The notes beneath the pieces are model-generated. The model did not search any database. It was not told the DNA's origin and was given only the letters and a program-made list of their open reading frames with translations. Of a DNA stretch of 64,000 nt, positions 4,546 through 62,223 are shown piece by piece. The stretch comes from Solirubrobacteraceae bacterium (GTDB lineage Bacteria > Actinomycetota > Thermoleophilia > Solirubrobacterales > Solirubrobacteraceae): assembly GCA_017882455.1 (NCBI GenBank), contig JADGPL010000003.1, positions 1 to 64,000 of the forward strand, read 5' to 3'. Position numbers and translations under genes: made by a program. Numbering within the stretch: position 1 is the stretch's first letter; the number at the start of each line of letters is the position of its first letter.

Positions 4546-6600
4546 TCAGTCGATCAGCGCCTCCAGGCGCGCGTAGGCGTCCTCGACCGCGCGCTTGGCC
4601 GCTGTGTGCCGCGCTTCGGACTTGGCAGCCTCGTAGCGCGTGGCCCAGGCGGCCGGATCGGCCAGCTCGCCTTCGAGCTCCTTCAGCGACGCCTCGGCCG
4701 CTTCGACCGCCTTCTCGGCCTTCTGCTGGTCGTTGAGTCGGTTCTTGGACGGCCCCTTCGGCTTGGCCCCGCCCTTCGCCCTGGCCTCTCCGGGACCCGA
4801 GCCGTTCCCACCCTCGAGGTCTCTTGCTGTTCCAGCCTGCACATGTGCAGGCTGGCGGAGGGTCGCATGCGACCCTCCGGGGGACCGCGCATGCGCGGTC
4901 CCGGCCGGACCGATCGAAGATCGGCCAACATGTGGGGCCGCCTTCCCGCCCGAAGACCCATTGGACCCCGCCGCCCGCAGCTCGTCGCGCACGCGCACGT
5001 ACTCGGGCCAGCCGCCCTCGTAGCTGCGCAGGGAGCCGTCCTCCACGGCCACCGTGCGCGTGCCCACGGCATCGAGCAGGGCGCGATCGTGGGAGACGAG
5101 CAGGATCGCCCCGGGGAAGGAGCGCAGGGCGTCCTCGAGCGCCTCGCGGCTCTCGATGTCGAGGTGGTTGGTGGGCTCGTCGAGGATCAGGACGTTGGCG
5201 CCGGACTGGACGAGCACGGCCAGGGACAGTCGCCGGCGCTCCCCGCCGGAGAGCCCGCTGAGCGGTTTCTCGGCCTCCTCGCCGGAGAACAGGAAGCGCC
5301 CCAGCAGCGCCCGGGCCTTTCCGGGGCTCAACTTGGTGGCGCTCTGGGTGGCGTCGAGCACGCTCTGGGTGGCCGACCCCCCGGCACCGAGCTCGTCGGC
5401 GTGCTGGGAGAGGTAGCCCACCTTGACGTTGTGCCCCGTGCTCAGTTTCCCCGCCGCCAGCGGACGGCGGCCGGCGAGGGTCTCGATCAGGGTGGTCTTG
5501 CCGGCGCCGTTGGGGCCCACGAGCGAGACGTGCTCGCCGCGCTCCAGCCACAGCTCGGCCTGGTCGAGCAGCACCACCGGGCCGGTGGGCGGCTCGCCGA
5601 TCTCCACGCGCCCCTCGTGCAGCTCGAAGATCACGCGCCCCGTGCGCTCGGGCGCGGCGAACTGGAACTCCAGGCCCTTCTCGTCCTTGGGGTCCCGCTC
5701 GATCCGCTCGATCTTGGCGAGCTTCTTGACCCGGGATTGGGCCTGTTTGGCCTTCGTGGCCTTGTAGCGGAAGCGCTCGATGAAGCGCTCCATCCGCTCG
5801 ATCTCCGCCTGCTGCTTGTCGATCGCCTTGCCCAGGGCCATCTCGCGGGCGGCCTGCTCGCGGCGCCACTGGTGCCAGGTGCCGGCGAAGAAGCGCGAGC
5901 GGCCGGCCTCGAGCTCCAGGACGGCCGTGCCCACGGCCTCGAGGAACCAACGGTCGTGGGCGACGAGCACGATCGCCGCGTCCTGGTCCACGAGCGTCTG
6001 CTCGAGCCACTCCAGGGACTCGATGTCGAGGTGGTTGGTGGGCTCGTCCAGCAGCAGCACGTCCGCGCCCGTGGCCAGCGCCCGCGCGAGCGACGCCCGC
6101 GTGAGCTGCCCCCCGGAGAAGGAGCTGAGCGGACGGTCGAGGTCCCCGTCTCGGAAGCCGAGGCCGTGGGCCATGGCGGTGGCGCGGTTGCGCCACAGGT
6201 AGCCCCCGCGCGCCTCCAGGCGGGCCTGGGCGCCCGCATAGCGCGTGAGGACCGCCTCGTCGCTGTCGCCCTGCGCCATCTTCGCCTCCAGGGCCGCCAG
6301 CTGCGCCTCGATCTCGAGCTCCTCGGCGCACCCCGAGAGCAGGTAGTCGCGCAGCGCCATCCCCCGCTCGCGCGGTGGGCGCTGATCGTGGAGGGCGATC
6401 CGGACGCCCTTGGCCACGCTCAGCTCGCCACGGTCGATCGAGGTCTCCCCCGCGAGCATCCGCAGCAGGGTCGTCTTGCCCGCCCCGTTGCGCCCAGCGA
6501 TCGTCATCCGTTCGCGGCGCTCGAGCTTGAAGGAGACCCCTCGCAGCAGCGGCTGCCCGGCCATGTCCTTGTGCAGGTCTGATGCGATCAGCAGAGCCAT
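4546..6600 (-). CDS. ABC-F family ribosome-associated ATPase
   Basis: 684-residue tandem ATPase without membrane segments, as in the ABC-F translation factors (EttA, Uup, antibiotic-protection proteins). NBD1 has Walker A GRNGAGKTT (about 36-44), signature SFSGGQLTR and Walker B VLLLDEPTNHLD. The inter-domain linker is rich in Arg/Lys (FIERFRYKATKAKQAQSR). NBD2 has GPNGAGKTT, LSGGERRR and VLILDEPTNHLD. A linker near residues 555-605 leads to a C-terminal coiled coil (about 610-684), as in Uup-type members. That linker is encoded by a run of perfect 24-bp palindromes (4832-4936), which looks like an in-frame insertion. The specific substrate or ribosomal state cannot be assigned. Confidence 0.93.
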   Translation of the reverse strand: MALLIASDLHKDMAGQPLLRGVSFKLERRERMTIAGRNGAGKTTLLRMLAGETSIDRGELSVAKGVRIALHDQRPPRERGMALRDYLLSGCAEELEIEAQLAALEAKMAQGDSDEAVLTRYAGAQARLEARGGYLWRNRATAMAHGLGFRDGDLDRPLSSFSGGQLTRASLARALATGADVLLLDEPTNHLDIESLEWLEQTLVDQDAAIVLVAHDRWFLEAVGTAVLELEAGRSRFFAGTWHQWRREQAAREMALGKAIDKQQAEIERMERFIERFRYKATKAKQAQSRVKKLAKIERIERDPKDEKGLEFQFAAPERTGRVIFELHEGRVEIGEPPTGPVVLLDQAELWLERGEHVSLVGPNGAGKTTLIETLAGRRPLAAGKLSTGHNVKVGYLSQHADELGAGGSATQSVLDATQSATKLSPGKARALLGRFLFSGEEAEKPLSGLSGGERRRLSLAVLVQSGANVLILDEPTNHLDIESREALEDALRSFPGAILLVSHDRALLDAVGTRTVAVEDGSLRSYEGGWPEYVRVRDELRAAGSNGSSGGKAAPHVGRSSIGPAGTAHARSPGGSHATLRQPAHVQAGTARDLEGGNGSGPGEARAKGGAKPKGPSKNRLNDQQKAEKAVEAAEASLKELEGELADPAAWATRYEAAKSEARHTAAKRAVEDAYARLEALID
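4832..4936. repeat. cluster A of tandem RCATGY-centred palindromes inside the ABC-F gene
   Basis: Three perfect palindromes abut, with centres exactly 24 bp apart. They are 4832-4855 (left half ccagcctgcaca), 4856-4879 (left half cggagggtcgca) and 4881-4902 (left half gggaccgcgca). Two degenerate members follow: an interrupted hairpin ccgatc-gaa-gatcgg (4910-4924) and an acatgt-centred imperfect palindrome (about 4923-4936). The arms are unrelated to one another; only the central [A/G]CATG[C/T] and the length are shared. The unit is eight codons, so the ABC-F frame stays open and the units encode AH-containing linker octapeptides. Confidence 0.95.
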
Positions 6601-49002: not shown

Positions 49003-49099
49003 CGGGGCCGCACATGTGCGGCCCCGAGACACGCCGCATGCGGCGTGTCTACCGATCGGCGCATGCGCCGATCGGCGGGAGCGTGCATGCACGCTCCCG
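49003..49099. repeat. cluster B of tandem RCATGY-centred 24-bp palindromes
   Basis: Four perfect 24-bp palindromes: 49003-49026 (left half cggggccgcaca), 49027-49050 (agacacgccgca), 49052-49075 (ccgatcggcgca) and 49076-49099 (cgggagcgtgca). They are contiguous except for a single spacer base at 49051. Centres are acatgt, gcatgc, gcatgc and gcatgc. A ccggccgg...ccggccgg element (48973-49002) precedes them, as a ccggccgg also accompanies cluster A. The cluster fills the gap between a hydrolase gene and the convergent cutinase gene. Confidence 0.96.
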
Positions 49100-51822: not shown

Positions 51823-51905
51823 CCAGAGCTGAAAAAGGCAAACCCGTCGTGAGACGGGGGCGCAAAGTCAGAGATCTCGATGAGATAGCTCGGCTGCCAG
51901 GAAAG
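51823..51905 (+). promoter_or_regulatory. cyclic di-GMP-I (GEMM) riboswitch
   Basis: The aptamer landmarks occur in order. aaaaaGGCAAACC (51832-51844) is followed by a stem closed by a GTGA tetraloop (cccgtc-gtga-gacggg). GGCGCAAAGTC comes next (51859-51869, consensus GACGCAAAGCC), then a second stem (atctc-gat-gagat) and AGCTCGGCTGCC (51887-51898). gagct and agctc can close the outer helix. It ends about 12 nt before the ggagg of the pilin gene, so control is probably at translation initiation. Confidence 0.88.
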
Positions 51906-52777: not shown

Positions 52778-54022
52778 TCACTCGCTCGGCGCACGCGCGC
52801 CCAGCCAGTGGACGATCTCCAGCGCCAGTCCCACCTGCAGTCCTCGGTGCTCGAGCGGAGCCGGAAGCAGCTCGCGCGCGCGAGCGAGCCGATTGAGGAC
52901 CGTGTTGCGGTGGGCATAGAGGGCGCGGGCGGCACGCGAGGCGCTGAACTCCTCGCGGATGTAGACCCGCAGCGTCTCGCGCAGATCCGCATCTGCGCCG
53001 GTGAGCTCTCCGAGCGTTCGCGAGACGAACTCCCACGCGCCGTCCTCGTCCTGGGCTGAGAGCGCCACCAGTTGCACGTCCTCGTAGCTGGCGATGCGCA
53101 GGTTCCCGGGCATGCGATGCATCAGGCGCTGAGTGGCCAGCGCGTCGAGATGACCGCGACGAAAGCCCTCCATGCCGGTGGCGGTCGAGCCGAGAGCGAT
53201 CCGCACACCGGGACTGCCCTGGAGGTGGGAGCGCACAGCATCGAGGTCCGGCTCCTGCGAGCCCGCGTACCAGACCCACAGCGAGCGGGTGCTGCCCACG
53301 ACCGTGAACGGGCTGCGGGCGCCCGCAGCCCGCGCGAGCGCGTCGGCGGCCCGCTCCAGCTCGCCCTGGTCGGACACCTCGGCCTCGCTCCACACCACCG
53401 CCGCGGTATGGCGTCGGGACATCTCGTAGCGCAGTCGCGCGCTGGCGCGAGCGCTCGTGATCGGCGCGCCCTCGAGAACCAGGTTGACGGTCTCGAGACG
53501 CTCGGCGTGGGTGCCACGCACGAGTTGCTCGCGCTCGCGGTCGATCAGCTCCTGGAGCCCGGCGACCGTCTCATCGACGAAGGCGAAGATCGAGCGGGAG
53601 GTGACGTCGAGCAGCTCCCGCAGCTCATCGGGGTCATCGGTCAAGGTGAACGCGCGGCTCATCCAGGCGCGCCACGCCACGTTCTGGCCGATCCGGTAGA
53701 TGTTGAGCGTCGTGTCGTCGAGCCCGCGGCGCACGATGTCGCGAGCCAGGTCCAGCACCTGCGGGCTGAGGTTGGCCGGCACAGGGGCTCCGGGACGGCG
53801 CACGTTGGCGCTCGCCCAGTGCAGGATGTTGGCGTGGTCGGTGGCGATGGTGGCGGCGGTGATCGTCGGGTCATCGGAGAGCCTGCGAGGCGCGGCGGCC
53901 AGCACGGCCGCGTCGACCTCTCCGAAGAGCGCGTCGGGATCCTCGATCAGGGTGCTCGCGCCGGCACGGATGAGGGCGGCTATGCGCTCTGGCGGCGGCT
54001 CCCAGTTGGTCGCGACTGACAT
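52778..54022 (-). CDS. PucR/CdaR family transcriptional regulator
   Basis: 414 residues. An N-terminal helical sensor-like domain is followed by a GGDEF-like central domain (about 190-300). The C-terminal PucR helix-turn-helix reads LRVYIREEFSASRAARALYA followed by HRNTVLNRLARARELL. Such regulators often control adjacent catabolic or stress genes. The start is the ATG at 54022; the monooxygenase gene lies divergently, with an inverted repeat between. It is the probable regulator of that monooxygenase. Confidence 0.9.
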   Translation of the reverse strand: MSVATNWEPPPERIAALIRAGASTLIEDPDALFGEVDAAVLAAAPRRLSDDPTITAATIATDHANILHWASANVRRPGAPVPANLSPQVLDLARDIVRRGLDDTTLNIYRIGQNVAWRAWMSRAFTLTDDPDELRELLDVTSRSIFAFVDETVAGLQELIDREREQLVRGTHAERLETVNLVLEGAPITSARASARLRYEMSRRHTAAVVWSEAEVSDQGELERAADALARAAGARSPFTVVGSTRSLWVWYAGSQEPDLDAVRSHLQGSPGVRIALGSTATGMEGFRRGHLDALATQRLMHRMPGNLRIASYEDVQLVALSAQDEDGAWEFVSRTLGELTGADADLRETLRVYIREEFSASRAARALYAHRNTVLNRLARARELLPAPLEHRGLQVGLALEIVHWLGARAPSE

Positions 54023-61839: not shown

Positions 61840-61862
61840 GGGGTTCGCACATCGAGTCGCCA

Positions 61863-62223
61863 TGGAGACGGTGGGAATCGAACCCACGTCCGCGATCGCA
61901 TGAGAATGGCTTCTACGAGCGTAGCCGGCGCTCTGATCTCGTCCCCCACTCGCCTCGCCGGCGGGGTTATGGGGGACCAGCCTCCTAGATTTCCCCGACT
62001 TGGCGGAAGCGGACCGCGTCGGGTGAGCCTGCTTTCTGATCCCGGCCTTCCCCGCCGCAGGCAAGCGGGGCCCGAGACCTCACGGCTTAGCTATTGACTA
62101 AGCGGCGAGGGCGTACTCGTGAGAGTCCGCACTTATGTTTTTCCCGGGTGTTTTACGAGGCCGCCCGGGACCTCGACTCGCCACCACCCCCACGAACCGA
62201 CCACGTCGAAGCCTGTCGTCCCC
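61863..62223 (-). ncRNA. ssrA: transfer-messenger RNA (tmRNA)
   Basis: Single-piece tmRNA of about 361 nt; it rescues stalled ribosomes with SmpB. The 5' end GGGGACG (62223-62217) pairs with CGTCTCC (61870-61864) as the acceptor stem, and a T arm GTGGGTTCGATTCCCAC lies next to it. CCA is not encoded. The resume frame at 62130-62101 encodes ADSHEYALAA followed by TAG. The ADSH start and ALAA end are typical of actinobacterial tags, though this one is short. Pseudoknot-forming GC stems surround the frame. Confidence 0.96.

Follow-up and report, generated by a model that had tools for sequence, protein, structure and literature searches.

The first 64,000 nucleotides of contig JADGPL010000003.1 from a Solirubrobacteraceae bacterium (assembly GCA_017882455.1, forward strand; hereafter the window, meaning this whole stretch) contain an ABC-F ATPase gene with a short array of palindromes set into its reading frame. 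The array raises the question of how a sequence can stay self-complementary while its letters change, and whether paired stem changes arise through selection or through one-step recopying. We report here that, in arrays compared at the same orthologous position, a change in one arm is nearly always matched by a change in the other, and that such paired changes accumulate at close to the speed of neutral single sites. We favor, with moderate confidence, the reading that the array is mobile and forms hairpins, that its core is under constraint, and that each arm serves in place as the template for rewriting the other, by template switching or hairpin repair. The features on which the analysis draws are as follows.

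4546-6600, minus strand: ABC-F ATPase gene, an intact open reading frame (ORF) with the array in frame, in the linker ahead of the C-terminal part
4826-4831, plus strand: GCTGTT foot, the conserved edge motif of the family, adjoining unit 1 (flank alignment and position weight matrix)
4832-4855, no strand: palindrome unit 1, ACATGT centre, perfect across 24 bp; orthologous unit P1 in six species
4856-4879, no strand: palindrome unit 2, GCATGC centre, perfect across 24 bp; orthologous unit P2
4880-4903, no strand: palindrome unit 3, GCATGC centre, perfect over the inner 22 bp (4881-4902); orthologous unit P3
4910-4924, no strand: short hairpin CCGATC-GAA-GATCGG without the RCATGY family core, status uncertain
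4919-4942, no strand: decayed unit with an intact ACATGT core (4928-4933), 7 of 12 pairs
49003-49026, no strand: second array, unit 1, perfect; identical 24-mer also at G000:C9
49027-49050, no strand: second array, unit 2, perfect
49052-49075, no strand: second array, unit 3, perfect
49076-49099, no strand: second array, unit 4, perfect; AACCGAGC comes next, a degenerate foot when the minus strand is read

An earlier note, made from the sequence alone, had described three abutting perfect palindromes in frame in the ABC-F gene, and this description holds: they lie at 4832-4855, 4856-4879 and 4881-4902 (array 4832-4902), centre to centre exactly 24 bp apart. Perfect palindromes with a half-length of at least 11 are expected only about 0.07 times per 64 kb at 69% GC (a scaled estimate), so three abutting ones are not due to chance. 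Two degenerate members had also been proposed; the one centred on ACATGT stands, whereas the hairpin at 4910-4924 lacks an RCATGY centre. The array at 49003-49099, which the note did not mention, is cleaner than that in the ABC-F gene and consists of four perfect palindromes, all RCATGY-centred, between convergent genes.

Further copies were found both in the same genome and in related genomes. The pattern RCATGY-N18-RCATGY gave 33 matches in the own genome against 1 in the reversed control; five of the 33 places were set aside by eye as chance, and the genome has at least 19 arrays (18 examined and one more at C37). Across 61 genomes, matches numbered 260 against 37 in the control for 24 genomes of the genus, and 77 against 98 for 37 others (all four totals are hand sums); G024, from a sister genus, also has array members. 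A three-core scan of GTDB contigs returned at least 80 loci, 64 of them with palindromic arms. Among the matches listed, 62 of these 64 are labelled Solirubrobacterales or Solirubrobacteraceae and two come from one 'Actinomycetes' metagenome-assembled genome (MAG), and 16 loci from other taxa have spaced cores without palindromic arms and serve as an internal control. Judged by these scans, the family is confined, in the data examined, to an uncultured genus of soil-dwelling Solirubrobacterales and its near kin.

A stricter rule and the removal of sequence duplicates, which dropped 2 of 88 arrays, left a set of 86 arrays with 279 units, including 64 three-unit and 15 four-unit arrays. As read from this set, the typical element is an array of usually three abutting 24-bp units with a GCTGTT-like foot at one edge. 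Of 40 unit-to-unit steps in the own genome, 26 measure 24 bp and the others 23, 25 or 26 bp; most other arrays were found by a pattern requiring three cores and exact 24-bp spacing, which biases spacing statistics outside the own genome. Each unit is predicted to fold into a 10-bp stem with a CATG loop, as DNA or RNA. The arms had been called unrelated, which is correct within the window, but across the family they fall into position-specific stem classes. No Rfam model matched the window arrays at the gathering score. The earlier note knew of no described family with such properties, and we found none described in the open-access literature, a scope outside which most subscription journals lie.

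Unit symmetry is all or none. Among 115 self-complementary RCATGY sites in loci of the own genome, picked by the core alone, 45 pair at all nine arm positions scored, 16 at eight, one at seven and none at six, and the remaining sites show background pairing of 0-5. Thirteen of the 16 sites pairing at eight positions fail at the outermost pair only. With ten other hexamer cores in the same loci, nothing pairs at more than 7 of 9 positions. Over all units, mismatches in the inner 20 bp amount to 19 of 2,790, a figure that understates decay as that set was picked for at least 8 of 10 pairs.

The earlier claim that self-complementarity is kept while the sequence varies is borne out by strong covariation. 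In 57 three-unit arrays with exact 24/24 spacing, standard pairs make up 99.1% of the 1,710 pair cells (65.9% after shuffling), and 498 cells are altered on both sides (143 after shuffling), with both-side changes at 29 of 30 pairs; G-U accounts for three cells. Between orthologous arrays, 842 pairs were the same, 235 compensated and 39 uncompensated. The closest copies (eight array pairs) had 16 compensated changes and no uncompensated one, and at pairs 6-11 of 16 non-ABC-F orthologous array pairs we counted 106 compensated and 5 uncompensated changes. This last set excludes ABC-F and array pairs with fewer than 100 fourfold-degenerate sites or fewer than two aligned units, and such pairwise counts of compensated and uncompensated changes are not independent. 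An unusual mutation spectrum was considered and rejected: the stems are rich in G-C/C-G swaps, but fourfold sites are more so (65%).

The 62 units in own loci and the 86 de-duplicated arrays are natural replicates with adjacent neutral yardsticks, so that rates become measurable. For ABC-F in six species, differences were present at 0.41 of fourfold sites and 0.33 of stem pairs 6-11, and parsimony gave a stem-pair to fourfold step ratio of 0.61 (0.34-0.91) on a tree taken from an orthologue tree with low deeper support. One species (G002) has two outer units; the one taken as P3 for parsimony was chosen by eye as the better match, and the other was used for the 0.41 and 0.33 differences. In the 16 non-ABC-F array pairs the corresponding values were 0.39 for stem pairs and 0.45 for fourfold sites. 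Saturation-corrected ratios of stem-pair to fourfold change ranged from 0.53 to 0.83, and these comparisons put the rate of change of orthologous stem pairs at about 0.5-0.9 times that of fourfold sites.

This rate bears directly on the mechanism. In our model, at the weak-mutation limit, selection strong enough to keep 0.2-5% of pairs unpaired lets pairs change at only 0.005-0.07 times the neutral speed. Arm recopying predicts a ratio of about 1, for which mismatches would have to be resolved 80-1000 times faster than point mutations arise. Mutation at quasipalindrome hotspots may outpace point mutation by as much. The earlier note had offered selection for a hairpin or cruciform and a process regenerating palindromes as alternatives. 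Because hardly any intermediates or G-U pairs occur and paired positions evolve at near-neutral speed, regeneration fits better than hairpin selection alone; the two arms may well change in one step.

Drifting mirrored arms around a fixed core, in turn, fit a dispersed hairpin element with arm rewriting in place. Each unit would extrude as a DNA hairpin or cruciform, with the predicted 10-bp stem and CATG loop, and one arm would be recopied from the other, either when the polymerase switches template or when mismatches in the hairpin are repaired, such that a point mutation in one arm would be erased or mirrored. The arms would then drift as a pair, and the core would stay fixed because something recognizes it. 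Dispersal of the array would fall to a trans-acting activity other than Y1/RAYT, and the copies that survive would lie mostly close to the 3' ends of genes and within linkers of proteins. A more specific form of this proposal, which we put forward only tentatively and consider unlikely, has the palindromes maintained and copied by a dedicated activity of the clade. This activity would recognize RCATGY at the core or CATG at the hairpin tip, open the hairpin or let it prime itself, and resynthesize one arm from the other; the array would then be a selfish element whose heritable identity is symmetry and core, not sequence. Consistent with a constrained core, a scan near known arrays that demanded pairing arms and no core recovered 275 CATG loops and one TATA loop among array units, the remainder of the list being shifted or unrelated hairpins. 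In the three ABC-F units of six species, the two innermost pairs are unchanged and pairs 6-11 average 0.89 steps. The core thus looks constrained where it stands, though the arrays were found through it.

Whole arrays have been inserted at many sites that are unrelated to one another. In one MAG, two contigs (L067 and L100) share an identical 72-bp array; identity stops within 3-5 bp outside it, and the flanks are unrelated. Where the own genome has the L025 array, several congeners show an empty site with stop codons that nearly adjoin; at L024 no array was visible by eye in 20 relatives with both flanks (L210 and L218 seen in part); and the array at the second window locus is absent in G022. 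Identical arrays in unrelated flanks together with congeners lacking the array at three loci indicate that it disperses as a unit. No target duplication was readable at the divergence of the loci compared. In G002 (L173), the position corresponding by orthology to the L025 array holds a different insert of about 91 bp, bounded by GGGCATCC...GGGATGCCC.

The ABC-F array is present in 6 and absent from 10 of 16 readable orthologues in the genus. It is old, and the carrier clade fits a history of a single gain and a small number of losses, although tree support is low. ABC-F linkers of similar length without palindromes, which the earlier note would have counted against an insert, do exist in those 10 orthologues, and linker length is itself uninformative. 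Gene calls by a codon-usage script, as distinct from curated annotation, placed 71 of the 86 arrays in intergenic sequence and 10 within a predicted ORF, with 5 unplaced at locus edges. The proposal that the element enters genes without breaking them therefore does not hold as a rule, with 71 of 81 placed arrays intergenic, although three unrelated genes do have in-frame arrays. Six of the 10 in-ORF arrays are the single orthologous set in ABC-F; the others lie in LeuRS (L108 by Pfam, and L085 by DNA alignment to L108), a PYC/OADA-domain protein (L086) and a doubtful ORF (L113). The 71 intergenic arrays occupy 42 tandem, 21 convergent and 8 divergent sites; among 127 control spacers the corresponding numbers are 75, 11 and 41 (Fisher's test, p 0.0002 for the convergent excess and 0.001 for the divergent deficit). 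Distances to gene 3' ends have a median of 13 bp and those to 5' ends one of 70 bp, and at tandem sites array orientation is unbiased relative to the genes (23 vs. 19).

Classical compensatory evolution would also explain paired change: the hairpin would have a function, in the form of RNA or of single-stranded DNA, and selection would purge the unpaired states left by point mutation. The strength of the covariation (reached in 0 of 500 shuffles), the very high predicted fold stability (z -8.6 for DNA, z -6.2 for RNA), the conserved core and spacing and the position near gene 3' ends all agree with it. It is nevertheless unlikely in our view, as RNA stems tolerate G-U and only 3 of 1,710 cells have it, no strand bias relative to genes was seen, the closest copies have compensated changes only (16 vs. 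0), and the rate it predicts at the weak-mutation limit, 0.005-0.07 of neutral, is far from the observed value of about 0.5-0.9. Alternatively, whole palindromes might be swapped between arrays by recombination, the double changes being imported intact palindromes. In its favor, the same position classes are found at different loci, a 24-mer from the second window array is present twice in the genome, and some arrays, for example L026, look chimeric. Units 1 and 2 of the ABC-F array have no second exact copy in the genome, however, so the genome offers no present-day donor from which these units could have been exchanged entire; many of the differences amount to one compensated pair each, and a source of varied perfect palindromes would still be needed. 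We regard such exchange as quite improbable.

The dispersal itself recalls a REP/REPIN-like element, with a Y1 RAYT transposase recognizing its hairpins and foot and mobilizing it, and short palindromes, a foot motif, extragenic placement at 3' ends and spread without a gene of its own would suit this view. Yet the arms are not a conserved REP sequence, and PF01797, the Y1/RAYT transposase model, had no match in 23 of the 24 genus genomes, including the own genome; only G006 has any, whereas 5 of 14 control genomes were matched. On the absence of PF01797 from the genomes searched we rejected this possibility, to which we assign a very low probability. Transcription terminators or insulators, which the convergent excess, the divergent deficit and the short distance to 3' ends might suggest, are the most improbable explanation of those weighed here; arrays also lie within the ABC-F, LeuRS and carboxylase ORFs, and a T-tract is not a defined part of the element. 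Two further candidates were rejected. Loss of SbcD as a special condition showed nothing specific, TIGR00619 being above cut-off in 1 of 24 genus genomes and also in 0 of 17 others, a comparison that rests on incomplete MAGs. The sole genus genome with SbcD above the curated cut-off (G008:C2:75337-76098, L277) has background array counts, which is a single case. A general palindrome excess in these genomes was weak and not clearly separable, in a comparison whose 'other taxa' class wrongly took in array loci L091, L094 and L100 and whose own class took in the window array.

Several observations weigh against a mobile hairpin element with arms rewritten in place. Arm recopying was not seen directly, and all the evidence comes from species-level divergence. 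The decayed window unit keeps an intact core, showing that symmetry is not maintained automatically. Fourfold sites are near saturation, which makes the rate ratios rough, and L019/L116, among the closest orthologous pairs, shows far less change (0.11 vs. 0.40). Core conservation is partly ascertained, as the searches required CATG. No mobilizing gene was found in the genomes searched for PF01797, and all carrier records with known titles are MAGs.

REP, BIME and REPIN elements resemble the arrays as short, dispersed, extragenic bacterial palindromes that form hairpins and have a foot; RAYT-linked REPs carry a GTAG foot. The arrays are likewise dispersed and mostly extragenic, and have a GCTGTT-like foot. 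They differ in their usually three abutting perfect palindromes per element, in drifting arms of which only the core is fixed, where REPs have a sequence-conserved palindrome with a fixed 5' foot, and in the lack of a Y1 transposase noted above. Compensatory changes have been reported in REPIN spacers (PMC3116915). Mitochondrial hairpin elements, DHE of Allomyces and RHE of sponges, are similarly tandem, lineage-restricted and mobile; RHE copies differ by few complementary substitutions, and DHE is known to us through the same source alone (PMC2800124). Our arrays, too, are tandem hairpins differing by complementary substitutions, but they lie on bacterial chromosome contigs instead of an organelle genome and combine a fixed RCATGY centre and a 24-bp period with near-complete symmetry across species. 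Rickettsia palindromic elements are palindromic and inserted in frame in genes. The arrays depart from them in location, most copies being intergenic and 10 of 81 placed arrays lying in a predicted ORF, and in keeping their arm identity, which Rickettsia palindromic elements lose over time (PMC6649704).

Nematomorpha mitochondria have perfect coding palindromes with all-or-none arm identity, from which the authors infer arm conversion (PMC6649704). All-or-none identity and occurrence in coding sequence are shared with the arrays; the Nematomorpha palindromes reach 284 bp and form no repeat family, whereas the arrays are short, serial, dispersed and mostly intergenic. In E. coli, template switching at quasipalindromes is an established process that makes imperfect inverted repeats perfect (PMC7202029). 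Template switching has also been proposed as creator and maintainer of RNA stems, in a paper that calls its own strongest evidence for stem maintenance circumstantial (PMC8794818). The arrays show the all-or-none arm identity and changes in both arms expected of it. Template switching is a mutational process and not an element, and here it would serve as the long-term upkeep of a repeat family. The arrays add a family of bacterial elements without a known mobilizer. If recopying is true, perfect covariation in DNA alone would be no proof of a functional RNA, which bears on the calling of structured RNAs by covariation.

Phage carriage was considered and rejected, as five viral contigs match the three-unit pattern and none has an array: three are low in GC with unrelated GCATGC-centred palindromes, and two have no palindrome. 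The palindromes of the former (L272-L274, about 40% GC) are scattered (AGACAA[G/C]GCATGC...) and unrelated in sequence to the array family. Among the array loci, L094 and L122 share a repeat of about 100 bp at 89-94% identity, and a 26-30-bp palindrome (GGATTCGTTCCGCGCGGAACGAATCC) occurs twice in L094. A recurring palindrome around TATAACCATGGTTATA or CCATGG, at about 2132-2155 in the window, about 2897-2920 in L029 and in L210, perhaps represents a second repeat family. Elsewhere in the window, a lone perfect 24-bp palindrome with a GGCGCC centre, outside the RCATGY family, lies at 53309-53332 and overlaps several long ORFs. An 18-bp unit tandem array (TTCCCGTCGGTGTCTGCC, 5.7 copies, 98% match) occupies 2034-2137, just upstream of the ORF at 977-1927 on the minus strand, which we take to be RapZ-like. 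Rfam matches in the window are a c-di-GMP-I-GGC riboswitch at 51828-51902 (plus strand) and a tmRNA at 61860-62223 (minus strand).
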